Positions 8,664 through 44,591 of a stretch of 44,606 bases of DNA are shown here, in pieces. This stretch comes from Candidatus Nitrosopumilus sp. (GTDB taxonomy: Archaea; Thermoproteota; Nitrososphaeria; Nitrososphaerales; Nitrosopumilaceae), in contig NZ_JANQTA010000014.1 in the NCBI RefSeq assembly GCF_028278985.1, positions 1-44,606 on the forward strand, written 5' to 3'. Within the stretch, counting starts at the first letter, position 1, and the number at the start of each line of letters is the position of its first letter. Made by a program: the position numbers and the translations under genes. Below the pieces are notes generated by a model, which saw only the letters and a program-made list of their open reading frames with translations, was not told where the DNA came from and made no database searches.

Positions 8664-8941
8664 GCTGCCACCAACTCAAATTTCTTAATTCTAATTCCAG
8701 GCTTGTTGAATTTCTTTTTACAAGCGGTACATGTCAAAATAGGAGTAACTTTCTTTGTAACTTTGGCTGGTTTTGCAAGTTTTGGGAATTTTTGTCCACC
8801 ATAACCCTTTTTTCTTTCAGCGTGTCTACGCTCACCTCTTGCTGAACCTCTTCTCTTTCCAGCCTTGTAAATGGAGATCTTGTGGTCTTCGTGTGTCTTA
8901 CACTTAGAACAGTACTTTCTGATCACCTTTGGAATGTTCAT
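8660..8941 (-). CDS. rpl44e: Ribosomal protein L44e
   Basis: 93 residues, a large-subunit ribosomal protein. It has a zinc site built from YCSKC near the N-terminus and CTACKKKF near the C-terminus, with the basic RRGSARGERRHAERKKGYGG loop between. A TATA-like CTTAAATTA on the minus strand (8964-8972) is centred 27 bases before ATG 8941, implying a leaderless transcript. It is divergent from ade. Confidence 0.96.
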   Translation of the reverse strand: MNIPKVIRKYCSKCKTHEDHKISIYKAGKRRGSARGERRHAERKKGYGGQKFPKLAKPAKVTKKVTPILTCTACKKKFNKPGIRIKKFELVAA

Positions 8942-8963
8942 ATCAACAAAACCTTCTGACCCG

Positions 8964-36607: not shown

Positions 36608-36616
36608 AAATTGATC

Positions 36617-37831
36617 TTGGCTAGAATTTCACTACAATGTAGAGAGTGCAAAAAGGACTATGACTCTACTTTCAAGTATATCTGTGATGATTGTTTTGGA
36701 CCTCTTGATGTCAAATATAATTTTCCTCCCGTAACTAAGGACACATTTACTAATCGAGAAAAAACCTATTGGAGATATTTTGAATTACTTCCAATAGAAA
36801 ACAAATCAAATATTGTAAGTATTGATGCAGGAATGACTCCTCTTACAAAAGCAGAGAAATTAGGTGAACAATTAGGACTAAAAAATCTCTATATCAAAAA
36901 TGATTCTGTTAATCCAACATTTTCATTTAAAGATAGACCAGCAGGAGTTGCAATTTCCAAAGCTAAAGAATTTGGAATGTCTGCAGTTGGTTGTGCCTCA
37001 ACTGGTAATCTAGCTTCTGCTACTGCAGCACATGCAGCTAAAGGGGGTTTTCCATGTCATATTTTTGCACCAAGTAACATAGAGATGGCAAAAATAGCCC
37101 AAGCACTATCTTATGGTGCAAATTACATTGCAGTTGATGGAACTTATGATGATGCAAATAGAATTGCTGCACAAATTGGTGATAGTAAAGGAATTGGAGT
37201 TGTAAATATCAATATGCGTTCTTACTATGTAGAAGGTTCTAAAACTTTGGCTTACGAAGTAGCGGAACAACTTAATTGGCAAGTACCTGATCAATTAATT
37301 GTTCCAGTAGGAAGTGGTGCAATGCTTAATGCTATTTGTAAAGGATTTGAAGAATTACAATCTGTATCTTTACTTGGGGATGTTTCTAATATGCATATGA
37401 TTGCGGCACAACCTCATGGATGTGCTCCTGTAGTTGATGCATTTAAAAAAAATAGTACTGAAGTTATTCCAGTTGAAAATCCTGATACTGTTGCAAAAAG
37501 TTTGGCAATTGGGGATCCTGGTGATGGTCGGTATGTTCTCAAACGATTACAACAATATAATGGATTTGCAGAAGAATCAAACAACCAAGAAATCCTTGAT
37601 GCAATTTTACTCTTAGCAAAAACTGAAGGGATCTTTACTGAACCAGCTGGTGGAGTATCTGTAGCTGTATTACAAAAAATGGTAGAACAAGGTAAGATTG
37701 ATGCAAATGATAAAGTTGTATGTTATGTTACTGGAAATGGTTTGAAAGCTACTGAATCAATTATGGAAGTATTGCAAAAGCCTACAGTTATGAAGGCAGA
37801 CGTGGGAGAAATATCGGCGGTAGTTAACTAA
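36617..37831 (+). CDS. thrC: Threonine synthase (PLP-dependent, with N-terminal zinc ribbon)
   Basis: 404 residues from TTG 36617 (MARISLQC; TTG 36611 adds two residues). It converts O-phosphohomoserine to threonine. The N-terminus has a four-Cys ribbon (CREC...CDDC). The PLP lysine lies in PTFSFKDRPAG, GCASTGNLASATAAHAA is the phosphate and substrate region, and VPVGSGAMLNA the PLP-phosphate loop. Length is normal for archaeal ThrC. It begins an operon with the Ubl-E1 fusion 1 base downstream. Because related PLP enzymes such as CysM accept sulfur from ubiquitin-like thiocarboxylates, a sulfhydrylase side role is possible, but the sequence itself supports ThrC. Confidence 0.9.
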   Translation: MARISLQCRECKKDYDSTFKYICDDCFGPLDVKYNFPPVTKDTFTNREKTYWRYFELLPIENKSNIVSIDAGMTPLTKAEKLGEQLGLKNLYIKNDSVNPTFSFKDRPAGVAISKAKEFGMSAVGCASTGNLASATAAHAAKGGFPCHIFAPSNIEMAKIAQALSYGANYIAVDGTYDDANRIAAQIGDSKGIGVVNINMRSYYVEGSKTLAYEVAEQLNWQVPDQLIVPVGSGAMLNAICKGFEELQSVSLLGDVSNMHMIAAQPHGCAPVVDAFKKNSTEVIPVENPDTVAKSLAIGDPGDGRYVLKRLQQYNGFAEESNNQEILDAILLLAKTEGIFTEPAGGVSVAVLQKMVEQGKIDANDKVVCYVTGNGLKATESIMEVLQKPTVMKADVGEISAVVN

Positions 37832-37832
37832 G

Positions 37833-39170
37833 ATGGCAAATATCACATTTACAATTCCTTCGGTTCTAAATCAAGGTGGAGGAGAGAAGAAAACTGAGAT
37901 TTCAGCAGAATCATTAACTGATGCATTTGCAAAAATTTCTGAAATCATGGGTGATGACTTTAAACGTCGTGTACTAGAAGGTGATGGAACCCCTCGTTCT
38001 CTAATCAATATATACATCAATGGCAAAAATGCCAAATTTTCTGATGGAATGAATACTGTTCTAAATGATGGTGATGAGGTTTACATATTGCCAGCAGTTG
38101 CAGGTGGCTCTGAAGAACTTTCATCAAAGGAACTTGATAGATTTTCCCGTCAAGTAATGCTTGAAGAAATTGGTTATCAAGGACAATTGAAATTAAAAAA
38201 TGCTAAAGTATGTGTTGTTGGAACTGGAGGTTTAGGACACCCAATAATTTCTAGATTAGCTACAATGGGAGTTGGTAATTTGCGAATCATTGATCGAGAT
38301 GTAATTGAATTATCAAACCTACATAGACAAATAATGTTTGATGAAGATGATGTTGGCCAAGTAAAAGTAGAAGTAGCTGCAAAAAAATTGCAAAAATTAA
38401 ATCCAGAATGTAAAATTGAAGCACTTGCTATTTCAATAAATGATTATACTGCATTAGAAGTTGTCGAAGGATGTGATGTTGTAATTGATGCACTTGATAG
38501 TGTTAATGCAAGATATGCATTAAACAAAGCATGTGTTGAATTTAACATTCCATTTGTTACTGGAGCTGCAGTTGGAACATCAGGACAAGCTTTTACAATC
38601 TTACCAAAAAAATCTGCATGTTATTTTTGCATGTTCCCTGAACTAAATGAAGATACAATGCCAACATGCAGCATTGAAGGTGTTCATCCACCAATACTTT
38701 CTATTGTTGGTGCAATCGAAGTTGCCGAAGCTGTAAAAATAATTCTTGGAAAAAAACCAAATCTTTCTGAAAGAATTTTACATATTGATTTAGAAAATCT
38801 TGATTTCAACAGCACTAGAACATTTAGAGCAGATGAATGTCCAATTTGTGGAACTGGAAAATTAGAAGTTGTACAAAAAGAAGAATTGATTTTAGAAGAA
38901 TTATGTGGAAGAAACAGAGGAAAGCGAACTTACTCTATTACCCCAACTGAAATTTTTGATCTTAATATTGATGATGTAACATTGATTGCAAAAGAAAAAG
39001 GATTCATTGTTGATAATCAAGGTGACTTGGGACTATCTATGAGAACAAATGATTTGTCTGTAAGTTTCATGAAAAAAGGCTCAGCTGTTGTTGTTGGGCC
39101 AAAGGACGAATCTGAGGCTATCTCATTGTACAAAAGCCTCTTAGGTAAAGAGATCAAAGCAGGAATTTAG
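37833..39170 (+). CDS. Ubiquitin-like (MoaD/ThiS/SAMP) domain fused to an E1/MoeB-like adenylyltransferase
   Basis: 445 residues in three parts. Residues 1-92 are a beta-grasp domain like MoaD (ITFTIPSVLN, LINIYINGKN, LNDGDEVYILPAVAGG) ending in Gly91-Gly92. Residues ~100-340 are a MoeB/ThiF/UbaA domain: FSRQVMLEEIGYQGQ, nucleotide loop GTGGLG (130-135), LSNLHRQIMF, Asp219/Asp222 region, zinc cysteines C263/C266 and C336/C339, and candidate catalytic C279 in MPTCSIEGV. Residues ~345-445 are an unassigned C-terminal domain. The Gly-Gly is followed by SEELSSKEL instead of a free C-terminus. Known separate partners activate sulfur for molybdopterin, thiamin or tRNA, or modify proteins. The fusion means the carrier is either cleaved out or used in cis. 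Confidence 0.88.
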   Translation: MANITFTIPSVLNQGGGEKKTEISAESLTDAFAKISEIMGDDFKRRVLEGDGTPRSLINIYINGKNAKFSDGMNTVLNDGDEVYILPAVAGGSEELSSKELDRFSRQVMLEEIGYQGQLKLKNAKVCVVGTGGLGHPIISRLATMGVGNLRIIDRDVIELSNLHRQIMFDEDDVGQVKVEVAAKKLQKLNPECKIEALAISINDYTALEVVEGCDVVIDALDSVNARYALNKACVEFNIPFVTGAAVGTSGQAFTILPKKSACYFCMFPELNEDTMPTCSIEGVHPPILSIVGAIEVAEAVKIILGKKPNLSERILHIDLENLDFNSTRTFRADECPICGTGKLEVVQKEELILEELCGRNRGKRTYSITPTEIFDLNIDDVTLIAKEKGFIVDNQGDLGLSMRTNDLSVSFMKKGSAVVVGPKDESEAISLYKSLLGKEIKAGI

Positions 39171-39380: not shown

Positions 39381-42300
39381 ATGAATAACGAAATAGGACG
39401 TAAAATAACTAGTCTTACATTAATGGCAATTATGGTTGCCGGTGGTATGACATTTGCAGTTCCTGGTATGTTACCAGCTGCACATGCAGCCAACGCTAAC
39501 CTATTTGTTTCCGCAGAAAACTCACAGTTTGACAACTACATGGTAGGACCTCAAGTAATTGAGGTAGTCGTAATTGATTCAGATATCAACGATACAGATG
39601 AAGGAAAAGGTGAGCCAGACGTTACAGTAAACGGTAAGATCCTGAGAATGGTTCAAGCCGTCGATGGTAACTGGTATGGTTACTTTGCAGATAGAAATCA
39701 AGCACAAATTGCTGATAATACTGCAACAGGTAACGCCGGTTCTGGTTTAGACTTTGGTTCATTCTGTAGTGCAGATTCCGCAGACGATGTATTGGGTATT
39801 GATCTTACTGATACTGACGGTGTAGCAATTCCAAACGCTACCAGTACTGGTGGTGCTTTGGTAGACGGTAATGCCGCTGGTGGAGCTATCACAGCAACTT
39901 GTGATGGTACAGCAGCTGGTGTTAACGCCGCCTTAGAAAACAACGTCGTAAGAGAACCAAAAGATGTTAACTTAATGACCGGTGTTACTGGTGGTCAAGT
40001 TGGCCAAATTGGTTTAGTAAGCTTACCTGGTACTCAAGGAACTGAAAACTGGCCTTTCGTACAACTCTATGAATTAAATCCAACTGGTAATGTAGTCGTA
40101 CAGTACAACAAAGGTGGTGGTGTTCAATCTACAACACTTACTTTTGATGAAGCTGATGACTTTGCCGGTATTGAATTAGATAGAGGTGTATATCCACAAG
40201 GTGCACAAATTCATGCAACAGTTACAGACGTATGGTTAAACATTGACCCAACTGATGAAGACTCTTGGACATTTGGTGCCAATGCAGGTAACTCAACTGC
40301 AGCCGGCCCACACTACCAAGTCTTTGATGAAAACGGACAATCCGGTGGTACAGCAATTAGAATTGCTGATACCGACATACTCATGTGTGAGGATTGTCAA
40401 TTCTTCCTTGATACAAATACTCAAGGTGCAGATAACGAAGTAGTAACCCTTCAGGATAACGGAGATTCAATCCTCGTTAACCTGAATGCTACTCAAGGTA
40501 GCACTGCAGCTGGTGCAAACAATGCAACCGCATTCGGTGTATTGGCTGCAACAGCAACATTGGGAACAGGTTCACTTCCAGTTACCATCACAGAACAAGG
40601 TCCAAACAGTGGTGTATTTGGTACATATGATGAATCAGATGAATCAGTACTAAAAATCACAACCGATGCAGCAAGGGGAACCTCTGCAACTGTTGATTAC
40701 AATGATAGCCCAACTACCGTACTTGTAGGATTTGACTTTGCAACAATTGATATCCAACCAGTCGATGATACATGGAATTCTGGTGAAGCAATTCCAGTAG
40801 TCATTGTTGATGGAGATCAAAACAAAAACAGCAGAGTAGATGAAGACATAACAATATCAGACCCAACCTTCACGATCATTCCAGCATTAGCTACTGGTGA
40901 TCCATTTACAATTGGCGAGAGTACAACAACTCCTACTGTAAACATTGGTAATGGTACTATTAGTAAAGGTGCAATTTCTACTGCAGGCGATGCCGCAATA
41001 GGAACTGTAGGTAGTATCACTATCGCATTAAATGCTACAGCAGGTAACCAAACTTCCACAATTTCAGTCGATCCATTTAGTCAAAGAGCAATCTTAGACC
41101 AAACAGCAAATGCAACTGCACAAGTTGGATTTGTCATTGTTGACTTGAAAACAACCATGGAAGAACTACAAAATACTATTAGCCAAAATGGTACCAGAAA
41201 TGATGGTGTAGCATTTAACTTCTTCAATTATAATGTTGATTCATTCGGTCAAAGTGACGTAAGTGTCTACTTACTCAACAAGACTCAGAATATTCTCAAC
41301 ACTAATGATGAATTTGTTAATACAGCAGGTACTAACGCAGTTGTTCTTGCAGCTAACGCTACAGGAGCCGAGTACATCTCACTAGATGATCTCGATGCTA
41401 ACTTGTTCACAGACACAAATCCAAGTGATAATAACATTGGTCTCTTATTCGAATTCGAATATGATGGTGATGAATCAAATGGATTTGTTGGTATTGACGA
41501 TAAAGAAGTAATTGTAGCTGACTTCATGTCATTTGGTTTCAGTGATGATGGTGTGCAATCTGGTGAAAGATTCGCAAACCAAATCATCAGACTTGAAGCT
41601 GAAGAAACAGGCGATAACACAAGTACCTTCGAAGGTGAATTAGAATACTTCATGGTTAACCAATTAAGTATCCAAGAAGCAGGCACCTTTGAAATTGGTA
41701 CTTCTGGTGATGATCCAACATTCATAGTAATTGAGGATCTTACTGACGAAGATGCACCAAGAATCTCATACAATGATTTAGGTGCAGATGGTGTAGTTAC
41801 CCCAGTTTCTGACCAAGAAGAAGCTCCAAGCCACTCTGGTGTTGTTTCTCTAAATCAAGATTCTTACAAGATAGCTGATACTGTTGTCATTACTTTAGAA
41901 GACGCTGATCTTAACGTAGACTCTGATCTTATTGACATCTTTACTGTAGTCGGTCCAGGAACCGGAGCAACCGAAGATATGGTTGGTTCTGAAACCAGTC
42001 AAGCTTTGAGCTTTGGTGAACTTGGTAGATTACTTGATGTCACATTTGATGATATACAATGGGAAACTCCTGATGTAAATTCCTGTACCGCAGATGGTGA
42101 AACTGATGCTACAAACTCATTAGAGGATGTAACAACTGACACTGGACTCGGTGCAACCGGATTTACTTTGATTGAAACAGATACAGAATCTGGTGTTTTC
42201 ACAGGTGACTTCCAAATCCCAGCATTCTGGTGTAGAAACGCAGACACAACCGCAGTAGGTTCCGAACAAGCATACGAAACAACCACTGGTCTCGATATCG

Positions 42301-44591
42301 AAGTTAACTATGTTGACTTCAGAGATGCCTCTGGTGAAATCGTAGAAGTTGGTGACTCTGCAGGTGTCCGCGCAAACACTGGTTCCGTTAGCCTTGACAG
42401 AACAGTCTATCCAGTTCCATTCGGTGGTACTGCTGACTTTACTGGTGCTAACACAGAATCTCCAGACGGTAGATCCATCTTCCCAGTCCACGCTAGTGGA
42501 TTGACAGATGCAAACTCCGAATTAGATAATGGAGAATTCTTGCTAGGAGGAGATCTAAGCGTACACATTAGAGTAAACGATCCAGACTTTGACGTAAACC
42601 CAGCTGGTGAAGATACAATTGCACAAAACACCACAAACACCAACGTAGGTCCAGTTAAGATCTCTGTTCTCAGAGGTGCTTCAACTGTCGTACTTGGTTA
42701 TGCAGGTGGTCCAGCAGAGCTAAATGGCCCAATTGATGTCGCTGACAACAATGCCAATGCTGCTAGACAATTTGGTCCAATTAACGAAATCGCACCAGAC
42801 GCAGGTATTTACGAATTAGATCTAACTGTTAAATTCACCGATGGTCCAGCTGACGCACAATGCCCATCCAATGTGAGTTACACTCAGATTGGTAACGGTG
42901 ATGGCGATGGCGACACTGATGAAGTTGTAGACAGATTTGATGCAGCAGATGGCGATGGTAATGATTACTGTATCTTACAAGGAGATATTCTCCAAGTAGA
43001 ATACACTGATCCAGCTGACGCTTCTGGTGATATCAACACTGTTACTGATTCAGCAACATTTGACCTTAGAAACGGTGTATTGCAATCCGACAAATCCGTA
43101 TACATTATCGGTTCCGATATGATCTTAACACTCATTGAGCCAGACTTCGATCTTGACAATGATGCTGCTGAGACATATGACTTAGACTTAATCGAATGGG
43201 ACTCTGATGCTGCAACCATTTCCATGGGTAACCTTGGTGGTGCAGCAAATGCAGCCGCATTTGACCCAGAACCAACTGACTTTAGAGAAACAGGTGACAG
43301 CACTGGTATCTTCCAGATTGTTATCGAAATTCCTGAAGAATTAGATGGTGACAGATTAGAAAGAGGAGAAGAAATTATTCTCGAGTATACTGACTGGGGT
43401 CCATCCGGATCTGATTATGTAGGTGATGAAGATGAAGATGTCAACTTGACTGTCTTTACTTCTAACTTCGGAGCAACTGTAGAGCTTGACCAAAAAGTAT
43501 ACTCTTGGACTGACAAAGTTTACATTACTATCGTAGCACCAGATCACAACTTCGACAGTGACTTAGTTGATGAAATCGGTGACACTGATTTAGACCCAAT
43601 AAAGGTCTCAACCAGAGGATCTGATCTTGACAACTATAAACTCGTTGAAACTGGAACCGACACAGGCATCTTTACTGGTGAGGTTATCCTTACTGGTTTC
43701 ACACACGATGCTGATGGTGATTCCACAACTGGTACTGACGGTAATGATGTAGTTTCCGGTACTGCCACAGGTAACGGTCCAACTGATGGACTCTTACCAG
43801 CTGATGATGATGACGGACTTACTGTCTCCTTTGAATTCTCAGAGGATGAAACTGTAGTCGGTTCAGCACTCATTAGATGGAATATCGGTGAAGTTCAATG
43901 GTTAGAAGCAAGCTATCCAGCTAGCGGAACAGGTGTTGTAAGAGTAATTGATCCAGACATGAACTTAGATCCAGAAGCAGTCGACAACTTCGAAGTCGAC
44001 GTGTGGTCTGACTCCGTTGCCGGAGGTATTGACCTTACTGTAACTGAGACAAATGAGGCAACCGGAATCTTCGAAGGTACTGTATTCTTTACAGTTGCTG
44101 ACGAATCATCTGGTCACAGACTCAGAGTCGCAGAAGGTGACACAGTCACCGCAGAATATGAGGACAATACACTACCTGATCCATACACAACTGCAGATGA
44201 ACTTGATATTACTGCCACTTCACTAATTGGTACTGTTGTACCACCTCTCGAGAGAGCACCAGCTGCTAACTTGAGAACAGTTGATGCATTCGGTAACAGC
44301 TTAGATTCTGTTTCCGTTGACCAACAGGTGCAAATCAGTGCTGACTTAGCAAATGGTCAGGATAGAGAGCAATCATTCGCATACTTGGTACAGATTCAGG
44401 ATGCAAACGGTGTCACAGTCTCACTAGCATGGATTACAGGTTCACTATCTGCTGGTCAATCATTCAGCCCAGCTTTATCATGGATTCCAACTGAAGCAGG
44501 AACATACACTGCTACTGCATTCGTTTGGGAGTCTGTTGATAATCCTACGGCATTATCACCACCAGTTAGTACAACTGTCAACGTAAGCTAA
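39381..44591 (+). CDS. slp: S-layer protein
   Basis: 1736 residues. It starts with a signal peptide (KITSLTLMAIMVAGGMTFAV ... AHAA, cleavage near residue 36) and has no cytosolic motifs. The mature chain is acidic (Asp-rich), threonine/asparagine-rich with many N-X-S/T sites, and built of Ig-like units. Repeated pairs of motifs are DPDxNxD (for example at residues ~835, 1061, 1247, 1380, 1518) followed ~50-70 residues later by TGIF-G. Eight cysteines are in close pairs: 129/174, 336/339, 902/951, 1161/1197. Size and style match the N. maritimus S-layer protein as I recall it (about 1,730 residues). Codon use favours C-ending codons (AAC, GAC, TAC, GTC) far more than its neighbours, as in highly expressed genes. 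It makes the outer coat and, given its acidity, may concentrate ammonium near the membrane (published idea for Nitrosopumilus; not visible directly). Confidence 0.9.
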   Translation: MNNEIGRKITSLTLMAIMVAGGMTFAVPGMLPAAHAANANLFVSAENSQFDNYMVGPQVIEVVVIDSDINDTDEGKGEPDVTVNGKILRMVQAVDGNWYGYFADRNQAQIADNTATGNAGSGLDFGSFCSADSADDVLGIDLTDTDGVAIPNATSTGGALVDGNAAGGAITATCDGTAAGVNAALENNVVREPKDVNLMTGVTGGQVGQIGLVSLPGTQGTENWPFVQLYELNPTGNVVVQYNKGGGVQSTTLTFDEADDFAGIELDRGVYPQGAQIHATVTDVWLNIDPTDEDSWTFGANAGNSTAAGPHYQVFDENGQSGGTAIRIADTDILMCEDCQFFLDTNTQGADNEVVTLQDNGDSILVNLNATQGSTAAGANNATAFGVLAATATLGTGSLPVTITEQGPNSGVFGTYDESDESVLKITTDAARGTSATVDYNDSPTTVLVGFDFATIDIQPVDDTWNSGEAIPVVIVDGDQNKNSRVDEDITISDPTFTIIPALATGDPFTIGESTTTPTVNIGNGTISKGAISTAGDAAIGTVGSITIALNATAGNQTSTISVDPFSQRAILDQTANATAQVGFVIVDLKTTMEELQNTISQNGTRNDGVAFNFFNYNVDSFGQSDVSVYLLNKTQNILNTNDEFVNTAGTNAVVLAANATGAEYISLDDLDANLFTDTNPSDNNIGLLFEFEYDGDESNGFVGIDDKEVIVADFMSFGFSDDGVQSGERFANQIIRLEAEETGDNTSTFEGELEYFMVNQLSIQEAGTFEIGTSGDDPTFIVIEDLTDEDAPRISYNDLGADGVVTPVSDQEEAPSHSGVVSLNQDSYKIADTVVITLEDADLNVDSDLIDIFTVVGPGTGATEDMVGSETSQALSFGELGRLLDVTFDDIQWETPDVNSCTADGETDATNSLEDVTTDTGLGATGFTLIETDTESGVFTGDFQIPAFWCRNADTTAVGSEQAYETTTGLDIEVNYVDFRDASGEIVEVGDSAGVRANTGSVSLDRTVYPVPFGGTADFTGANTESPDGRSIFPVHASGLTDANSELDNGEFLLGGDLSVHIRVNDPDFDVNPAGEDTIAQNTTNTNVGPVKISVLRGASTVVLGYAGGPAELNGPIDVADNNANAARQFGPINEIAPDAGIYELDLTVKFTDGPADAQCPSNVSYTQIGNGDGDGDTDEVVDRFDAADGDGNDYCILQGDILQVEYTDPADASGDINTVTDSATFDLRNGVLQSDKSVYIIGSDMILTLIEPDFDLDNDAAETYDLDLIEWDSDAATISMGNLGGAANAAAFDPEPTDFRETGDSTGIFQIVIEIPEELDGDRLERGEEIILEYTDWGPSGSDYVGDEDEDVNLTVFTSNFGATVELDQKVYSWTDKVYITIVAPDHNFDSDLVDEIGDTDLDPIKVSTRGSDLDNYKLVETGTDTGIFTGEVILTGFTHDADGDSTTGTDGNDVVSGTATGNGPTDGLLPADDDDGLTVSFEFSEDETVVGSALIRWNIGEVQWLEASYPASGTGVVRVIDPDMNLDPEAVDNFEVDVWSDSVAGGIDLTVTETNEATGIFEGTVFFTVADESSGHRLRVAEGDTVTAEYEDNTLPDPYTTADELDITATSLIGTVVPPLERAPAANLRTVDAFGNSLDSVSVDQQVQISADLANGQDREQSFAYLVQIQDANGVTVSLAWITGSLSAGQSFSPALSWIPTEAGTYTATAFVWESVDNPTALSPPVSTTVNVS

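Follow-up and report, generated by a model that had tools for sequence, protein, structure and literature searches.

A ubiquitin-like carrier fused to an E1-like enzyme in Candidatus Nitrosopumilus: a candidate JAMM-processed sulfur-carrier precursor

The presence of a ubiquitin-like carrier (Ubl), an E1-like activating enzyme and a TBP-like domain in one archaeal chain is already known. The architecture has been on record as "Ubl-E1-TBP in Thaumarchaeota" since the 2010 study of Makarova and Koonin (PMC2948915), and a 2024 survey of gene fusions lists it as a MoaD-MoeB fusion, cluster 356.1, in 61 of 98 thaumarchaeal assemblies (PMC11237513). Both reports describe the identical architecture in the same organisms without a processing step, a partner or a function for it, and the fusion has stood for more than a decade without a function; the present analysis adds its pairing with a threonine-synthase-like (ThrC-like) enzyme, a free-Gly-Gly ancestor, a genus in which the fusion has been split again, and the pattern of JAMM proteases. 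Carriers with an internal Gly-Gly are likewise on record in MoaX, which is cut between Gly82 and Ser83 (PMC4326299), and in the MoaD-MoaE fusion DR2607, which is cut by DRJAMM, and both HvJAMM1 and DRJAMM cut linear carrier fusions (PMC8832034). The premise of the original prediction, a carrier apart from its E1 and a free terminal Gly-Gly in the systems known so far, is contradicted by these published fusions, although they do offer a precedent for the processing that it proposed. As in the protein described here, the carrier of MoaX and DR2607 is N-terminal and its Gly-Gly is followed by Ser, and their function needs cleavage after the Gly-Gly; in contrast, the partner here is an E1 and not MoaE, which is missing from the genomes in question.

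Two further systems are close in composition. In the Mycobacterium CysO/CysM/MoeZ/Mec+ system (PMC3227635), CysO is the closest solved relative of the carrier, the activating enzyme is a MoeB-type E1, a PLP enzyme adjoins the carrier and a JAMM protease exists. The locus in Candidatus Nitrosopumilus differs, however, in that the carrier is fused to the E1, the E1 bears a TBP-like domain and not a rhodanese, the neighbouring enzyme is ThrC-like and not CysM, and the JAMM gene is unlinked. The Haloferax system of UbaA, SAMP1 and HvJAMM1, a modifier system (PMC4443979), similarly combines one E1, MoaD-like carriers and a desampylase, whereas its carriers are free and the UbaA and desampylase equivalog models fall below their cut-offs for the proteins considered here.

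The window, that is, the whole 44,606-nucleotide stretch of DNA analysed, encodes one 445-aa protein at 37833-39170 (+); its ATG follows the stop codon of the preceding gene with one base in between. The opposite strand carries stops throughout in the same register, and a homologue search finds the same protein across the order, so the observation is not a product of chance; the occurrence of Ubl and E1 in one chain in this organism is confirmed, and with the TBP-like domain the protein belongs to the Ubl-E1-TBP family of Thaumarchaeota. The features discussed below are as follows.

36611..37831 (+): threonine-synthase-like PLP enzyme, 1 bp upstream of the Ubl, NPxR motif replaced (PALP 247.7 bits)
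37833..38108 (+): CysO/SAMP/MoaD-like beta-grasp Ubl domain, residues 1-92, ending ...ILPAVAGG (Pfam ThiS, PDB match, model)
38103..38108 (+): internal Gly91-Gly92, putative processing site with the cut after Gly92 (conserved Gly-Gly, free homologues ending at Gly-Gly, low pLDDT)
38109..38141 (+): linker SEELSSKELDR..., corresponding to the N-terminus of free E1s (here 10 residues before the R[FY]SRQ motif)
38142..38852 (+): MoeB/ThiF/UbaA-type E1 adenylation domain, residues 104-340, with Cys279 and Cys263/266/336/339 (Pfam, Foldseek, invariant residues)
38868..39143 (+): TBP-like C-terminal domain, residues 346-437, seen on E1s of the group (separate model, Foldseek)

The assignment of residues 1-92 to a beta-grasp carrier and of residues ~100-340 to an E1-like enzyme, both made in the original prediction, is borne out by profiles and structure prediction alike. 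Pfam ThiS (PF02597) matches residues 49-92 with 34.8 bits against a cut-off of 22.5, and in a phmmer search of residues 1-93 against PDB sequences the closest entry is M. tuberculosis CysO (3dwg, E=8e-12), to which the alignment runs end to end, the terminal AVAGG included; the SAMP1 equivalog model NF041918 reaches 45.4 bits, below its cut-off of 60. As translated, however, the carrier has no free C-terminal Gly-Gly, since residues 91-92 are followed by SEELSSKEL. An AlphaFold2 model of the full protein (mean pLDDT 88.6, pTM 0.74) has a beta-grasp N-terminus, and the one stretch where its pLDDT is said to drop under 50, residues 89-93, coincides exactly with the Gly-Gly junction. Next, Pfam ThiF (PF00899) covers residues 104-337 with 248.7 bits (cut-off 28.1), which places the domain in the ThiF/MoeB-type E1 superfamily, and the modelled E1 core resembles ThiF and MoeB structures (Foldseek E about 1e-25, TMt about 0.95), the UbaA (NF047750, 217 against 450) and MoeB (TIGR02355, 179 against 377) equivalog models both remaining below cut-off. 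The GxGGxG nucleotide-binding motif, the catalytic Asp, Lys and Arg and the zinc cysteines are all present: G130, G132, G133, G135, R165, K178, D219, D222, C263, C266, C279 and C336 are invariant and the zinc cysteine C339 nearly so, which agrees with the earlier view that the enzyme is no relic. In the alignment with ThiF, C279 falls on the catalytic cysteine, Cys184 in ThiF numbering. Finally, the C-terminal ~100 residues, previously left unassigned, form a folded domain both in the full model and when modelled alone (pLDDT 88). The best Foldseek matches of this domain are TBP halves, with probabilities as high as 0.99 and TMq near 0.55 but an E of only about 0.1. A TBP-like domain has been named on archaeal E1s before (PMC2948915).

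The protein is somewhat more likely than not a composite precursor of a sulfur carrier and its E1 that a JAMM protease processes, the best of the readings considered and one drawn from comparison of sequences. The chain would be translated as Ubl-E1-TBP and cut after Gly92, probably by a stand-alone JAMM1 similar to desampylases and PfJAMM1, which would regenerate a CysO-like carrier whose Gly-Gly is free and a MoeB/UbaA-like E1 that starts with a normal N-terminus. Next, the released carrier would be adenylated by the E1, and Cys279 together with sulfur from a NifS/IscS-type desulfurase would convert it to a thiocarboxylate. The charged carrier would feed sulfur chemistry rather than molybdopterin synthase, the likeliest users being the adjoining ThrC-like PLP enzyme, much as CysO feeds CysM, and an NcsA/TtuA-type tRNA thiolase. 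If a JAMM protease does release the carrier, the only activatable Ubl carriers of ammonia oxidisers would be made as precursors, as is eukaryotic ubiquitin.

The natural history of the fusion is consistent with such a precursor. A thaumarchaeal survey, as the original prediction had proposed, covered 250 genomes from the class and returned a full-length match in 132 of them. The ThrC-like enzyme, the carrier and the E1 are consecutive separate genes in families f7, f9 and f11, and the free carriers end exactly in PAV(S/G)GG followed by the stop; separate genes with a carrier of this ending are also found in Bathyarchaeota, Brockarchaeota and other archaea. All fused proteins of the Ubl-E1-TBP type form one clade of the E1 tree (support 98/99), with the free-Gly-Gly forms outside it. 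Free E1s have 9 residues, Met included, before the R[FY]SRQ motif, and the linker from Gly-Gly to this motif in 82 fused proteins is 9 residues long in 57 and 10 in 18, so that the fusion simply attaches the Gly-Gly end of the carrier to the E1's own N-terminus, and a cut after the Gly-Gly would restore the ancestral pair. The linker itself is hypervariable, with 53 distinct sequences among the 82 proteins and lengths of 9-47 residues, the longest being of low complexity, and yet not one of 114 distinct fused ORFs, picked with no regard to the Gly-Gly, is without P..GG. In genus g21, furthermore, the genes have been split again within the fused clade (L053, L056), and the carrier there consists of the Gly-Gly form plus 8 or 15 unrelated residues. 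A Gly-Gly kept beside free-running sequence suggests a processing site.

Candidate proteases for such a site are encoded in the genome, which has two JAMM genes matching the Prok-JAB profile (80.3 and 43.3 bits against a cut-off of 25) and in this respect resembles the CysO/CysM/Mec+ system. One of them, JAMM1 (P0002), is a stand-alone protein of 130 aa encoded away from the Ubl-E1-TBP gene; it carries an intact HxHx7SxxD catalytic motif, among solved structures it comes closest to P. furiosus JAMM1 (5lda, E=5e-18), and the desampylase model NF041370 scores it at 62.3 bits, below the cut-off of 130. In a single-sequence search, which a divergent JAMM could escape, JAMM1 was found in 130 of the 132 genomes with the full-length fusion, the exceptions being two drafts (G179, G117). 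The same search found it in one of six genomes with free-Gly-Gly carriers, namely G202 of a fourth family, and not in the other five, which come from three families (G162, G165, G170, G186, G195). With one main fusion event this distribution offers few independent phylogenetic contrasts, and the co-occurrence is suggestive of a role in processing. More telling are JAMM genes that lie next to carriers or E1s in other lineages: directly upstream of an independent Ubl-E1-rhodanese fusion (L130:7575-9424), in a row of genes for a CysM-like enzyme, JAMM, a carrier with Gly-Gly plus tail and an E1 (L131), and adjoining an E1 (L132). The earlier proposal that a JAMM protein releases the carrier gains ground, and JAMM1 is the likeliest enzyme for the predicted cut, although it may instead serve a second fusion, Ubl-Cgi121, or general deconjugation.

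The relationship of JAMM1 also bears on whether the Ubl, once released, serves chiefly to modify proteins (sampylation or urmylation), with the E1 activating it and JAMM1 both processing and deconjugating it, as with ubiquitin precursors and SAMP1. JAMM1 is closest to desampylases, Haloferax SAMP1, UbaA and HvJAMM1 form a system of this kind, and double roles as sulfur carrier and modifier are common in the carrier family. The closest carrier relative, however, is the sulfur carrier CysO, the genes that accompany it code for PLP enzymes, cysteine synthase, a cysteine desulfurase and homoserine dehydrogenase and not for proteasome components, and there is no E2 or E3 gene within the window. A predominantly modifying role therefore appears unlikely, if quite conceivable.

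The carriers of the genome provide a separate argument for release. Two ThiS-family domains were found, in Ubl-E1-TBP and in Ubl-Cgi121 (L002:982-1755), each N-terminal with an internal Gly-Gly, and the ThiS profile search, which a divergent free carrier could escape, returned no further one. The E1 of Ubl-E1-TBP is the only ThiF-family gene found in the genome. Provided that it adenylates a C-terminal glycine, as its family does, an active E1 would find no substrate with a free end unless a carrier is processed. The Ubl-Cgi121 fusion has itself been on record since 2010, and its internal Gly-Gly is invariant in the Nitrosopumilaceae sampled; no erosion of this Gly-Gly was seen in genomes without a ThiF gene, where the ThiF absences are confounded by assembly gaps.

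Were the chain never cleaved, the Gly-Gly of the tethered Ubl could function as a pseudosubstrate or regulator or could mediate docking or dimerisation, and the E1 would charge some other, free carrier. The invariant Gly-Gly of Ubl-Cgi121 shows that conservation of this motif alone need not mean cleavage, and such a role would also be compatible with the unlinked position of JAMM1 in the genome and with the pTM of only 0.74, which leaves the placement of the domains in the model open. What makes an uncleaved chain rather improbable is the lack of any other ThiS-family carrier among those found in the genome, together with ancestral carriers that stop exactly at the Gly-Gly, a linker that varies too freely for a conserved interface, and re-split carriers that retain the Gly-Gly followed by a short random tail.

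As to the use of the carrier released from the proposed precursor, its most constant companion is the ThrC-like gene, which directly precedes the carrier in all 80 of the best loci (GTDB contigs) and is a neighbour of the Ubl in every lineage examined. The ThrC-like enzymes share the motif RPYYVEGSKT in place of the VNPYR(I/L)EGQKT of crystallised threonine synthases, so that the Arg near the substrate, which presumably binds the substrate phosphate, is replaced by Tyr, and another Arg stands three positions earlier. Annotation models name the 36611-37831 product threonine synthase despite this altered substrate-site motif. A ThrC with the canonical motif is encoded on another contig (L179), which leaves the neighbour of the Ubl free for another task. 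Unlike in the CysO/CysM/Mec+ system, the PLP enzyme adjoining the carrier is not of the CysM type, and a CysM-like enzyme next to a carrier occurs only in L131. It was considered that the genome might be missing a cysteine synthase and that the ThrC-like enzyme would thus be essential for cysteine; this was rejected, as a CysK/CysM-type gene is also present, and on present evidence cysteine synthesis does not depend on the ThrC-like enzyme. The genome further encodes an NcsA/TtuA-type protein and a NifS-type desulfurase. The best-supported reading of these associations is that the Ubl acts as a sulfur carrier for amino-acid synthesis in the manner of CysO and CysM, and tRNA thiolation may draw on it too. 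The product may be cysteine or homocysteine, or the ThrC-like enzyme may be a plain threonine synthase.

Family resemblance and the MoaD-MoeB name used in PMC11237513 would instead make the fusion a MoaD plus MoeB for molybdopterin biosynthesis, as fusion surveys annotate it. MoaE, however, was not found in any of 50 Nitrosopumilaceae genomes tested, nor in any of the three f2 genomes, and it was missing from three of the four f3 genomes, whereas it was found in deeper families and in 11 of 14 control genomes, which makes the molybdenum cofactor unlikely as the purpose. With the MoeB and SAMP1 equivalog models also below cut-off, a role in molybdopterin synthesis is very improbable, and the MoaD-MoeB label is probably misleading, as the constant pairing with the ThrC-like gene points to sulfur amino-acid synthesis.

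Other archaea combine the same elements in different ways. In a Bathyarchaeota MAG (JAUVYS010000074), a CysO-like carrier ending in PAVGGG is fused to cysteine synthase A (L256:4841-6055; 457 bits for the synthase part, cut-off 351), and the fused gene stands between a ThrC-like gene and one for a NifS-type cysteine desulfurase. This independent fusion with an internal Gly-Gly supports a role in sulfur amino-acid metabolism. At two other loci a homoserine dehydrogenase gene lies between the free carrier and the E1 (L260:7452-8606; L290:2827-3933). A more general scheme can be put forward tentatively, in which a diverged ThrC-fold enzyme with a CysO-like protein thiocarboxylate would make cysteine or homocysteine in a widespread archaeal pathway of Nitrososphaeria, Bathyarchaeia and Brockarchaeota, and in ammonia oxidisers carrier and E1 would have become one self-contained precursor that a general JAMM must open; a literature search found no paper linking threonine synthase with an archaeal sulfur carrier.

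An anti-phage E1/JAB component of the CBASS Cap2/Cap3 or Bil kind, to which weak E1-E2 and JAB profile matches in PADLOC might point, can practically be dismissed, as the matches span only the generic ThiF fold and reach at most 84 bits where Pfam ThiF scores 249, the gene is accompanied by neither an E2 nor a cyclase, its histidine and amino-acid gene neighbours are conserved across the order, and it is present in every single-contig genome of the order.

The apparent absence of the Ubl-E1-TBP gene from many marine MAGs is mostly a matter of assembly gaps and not of losses. A loss of the E1 in marine Nitrosopumilus was considered and rejected: the many same-genus genomes without the E1 also lack the ThrC-like gene and often the his genes, or have these neighbours cut at contig ends (L149-L153), and no single-contig genome of the order is without the E1. 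In G067 (L213), a mid-contig case of E1 absence, hisI is truncated and ambiguous bases are scattered. In the window, 39381-44591 encodes a 1736-aa S-layer-like protein, a locus around which the assemblies of many MAGs are interrupted, so that adjoining genes seem falsely absent.

A few variants of the E1 and its carriers were also observed. Some Nitrosopumilaceae have a second, unfused E1 paralogue that forms a long branch inside the fused clade (L138:7748-8704; L139:7432-8391), and in family f4 two different small carriers ending in Gly-Gly flank one E1 gene (L134:5072-5311 and 8671-8946).
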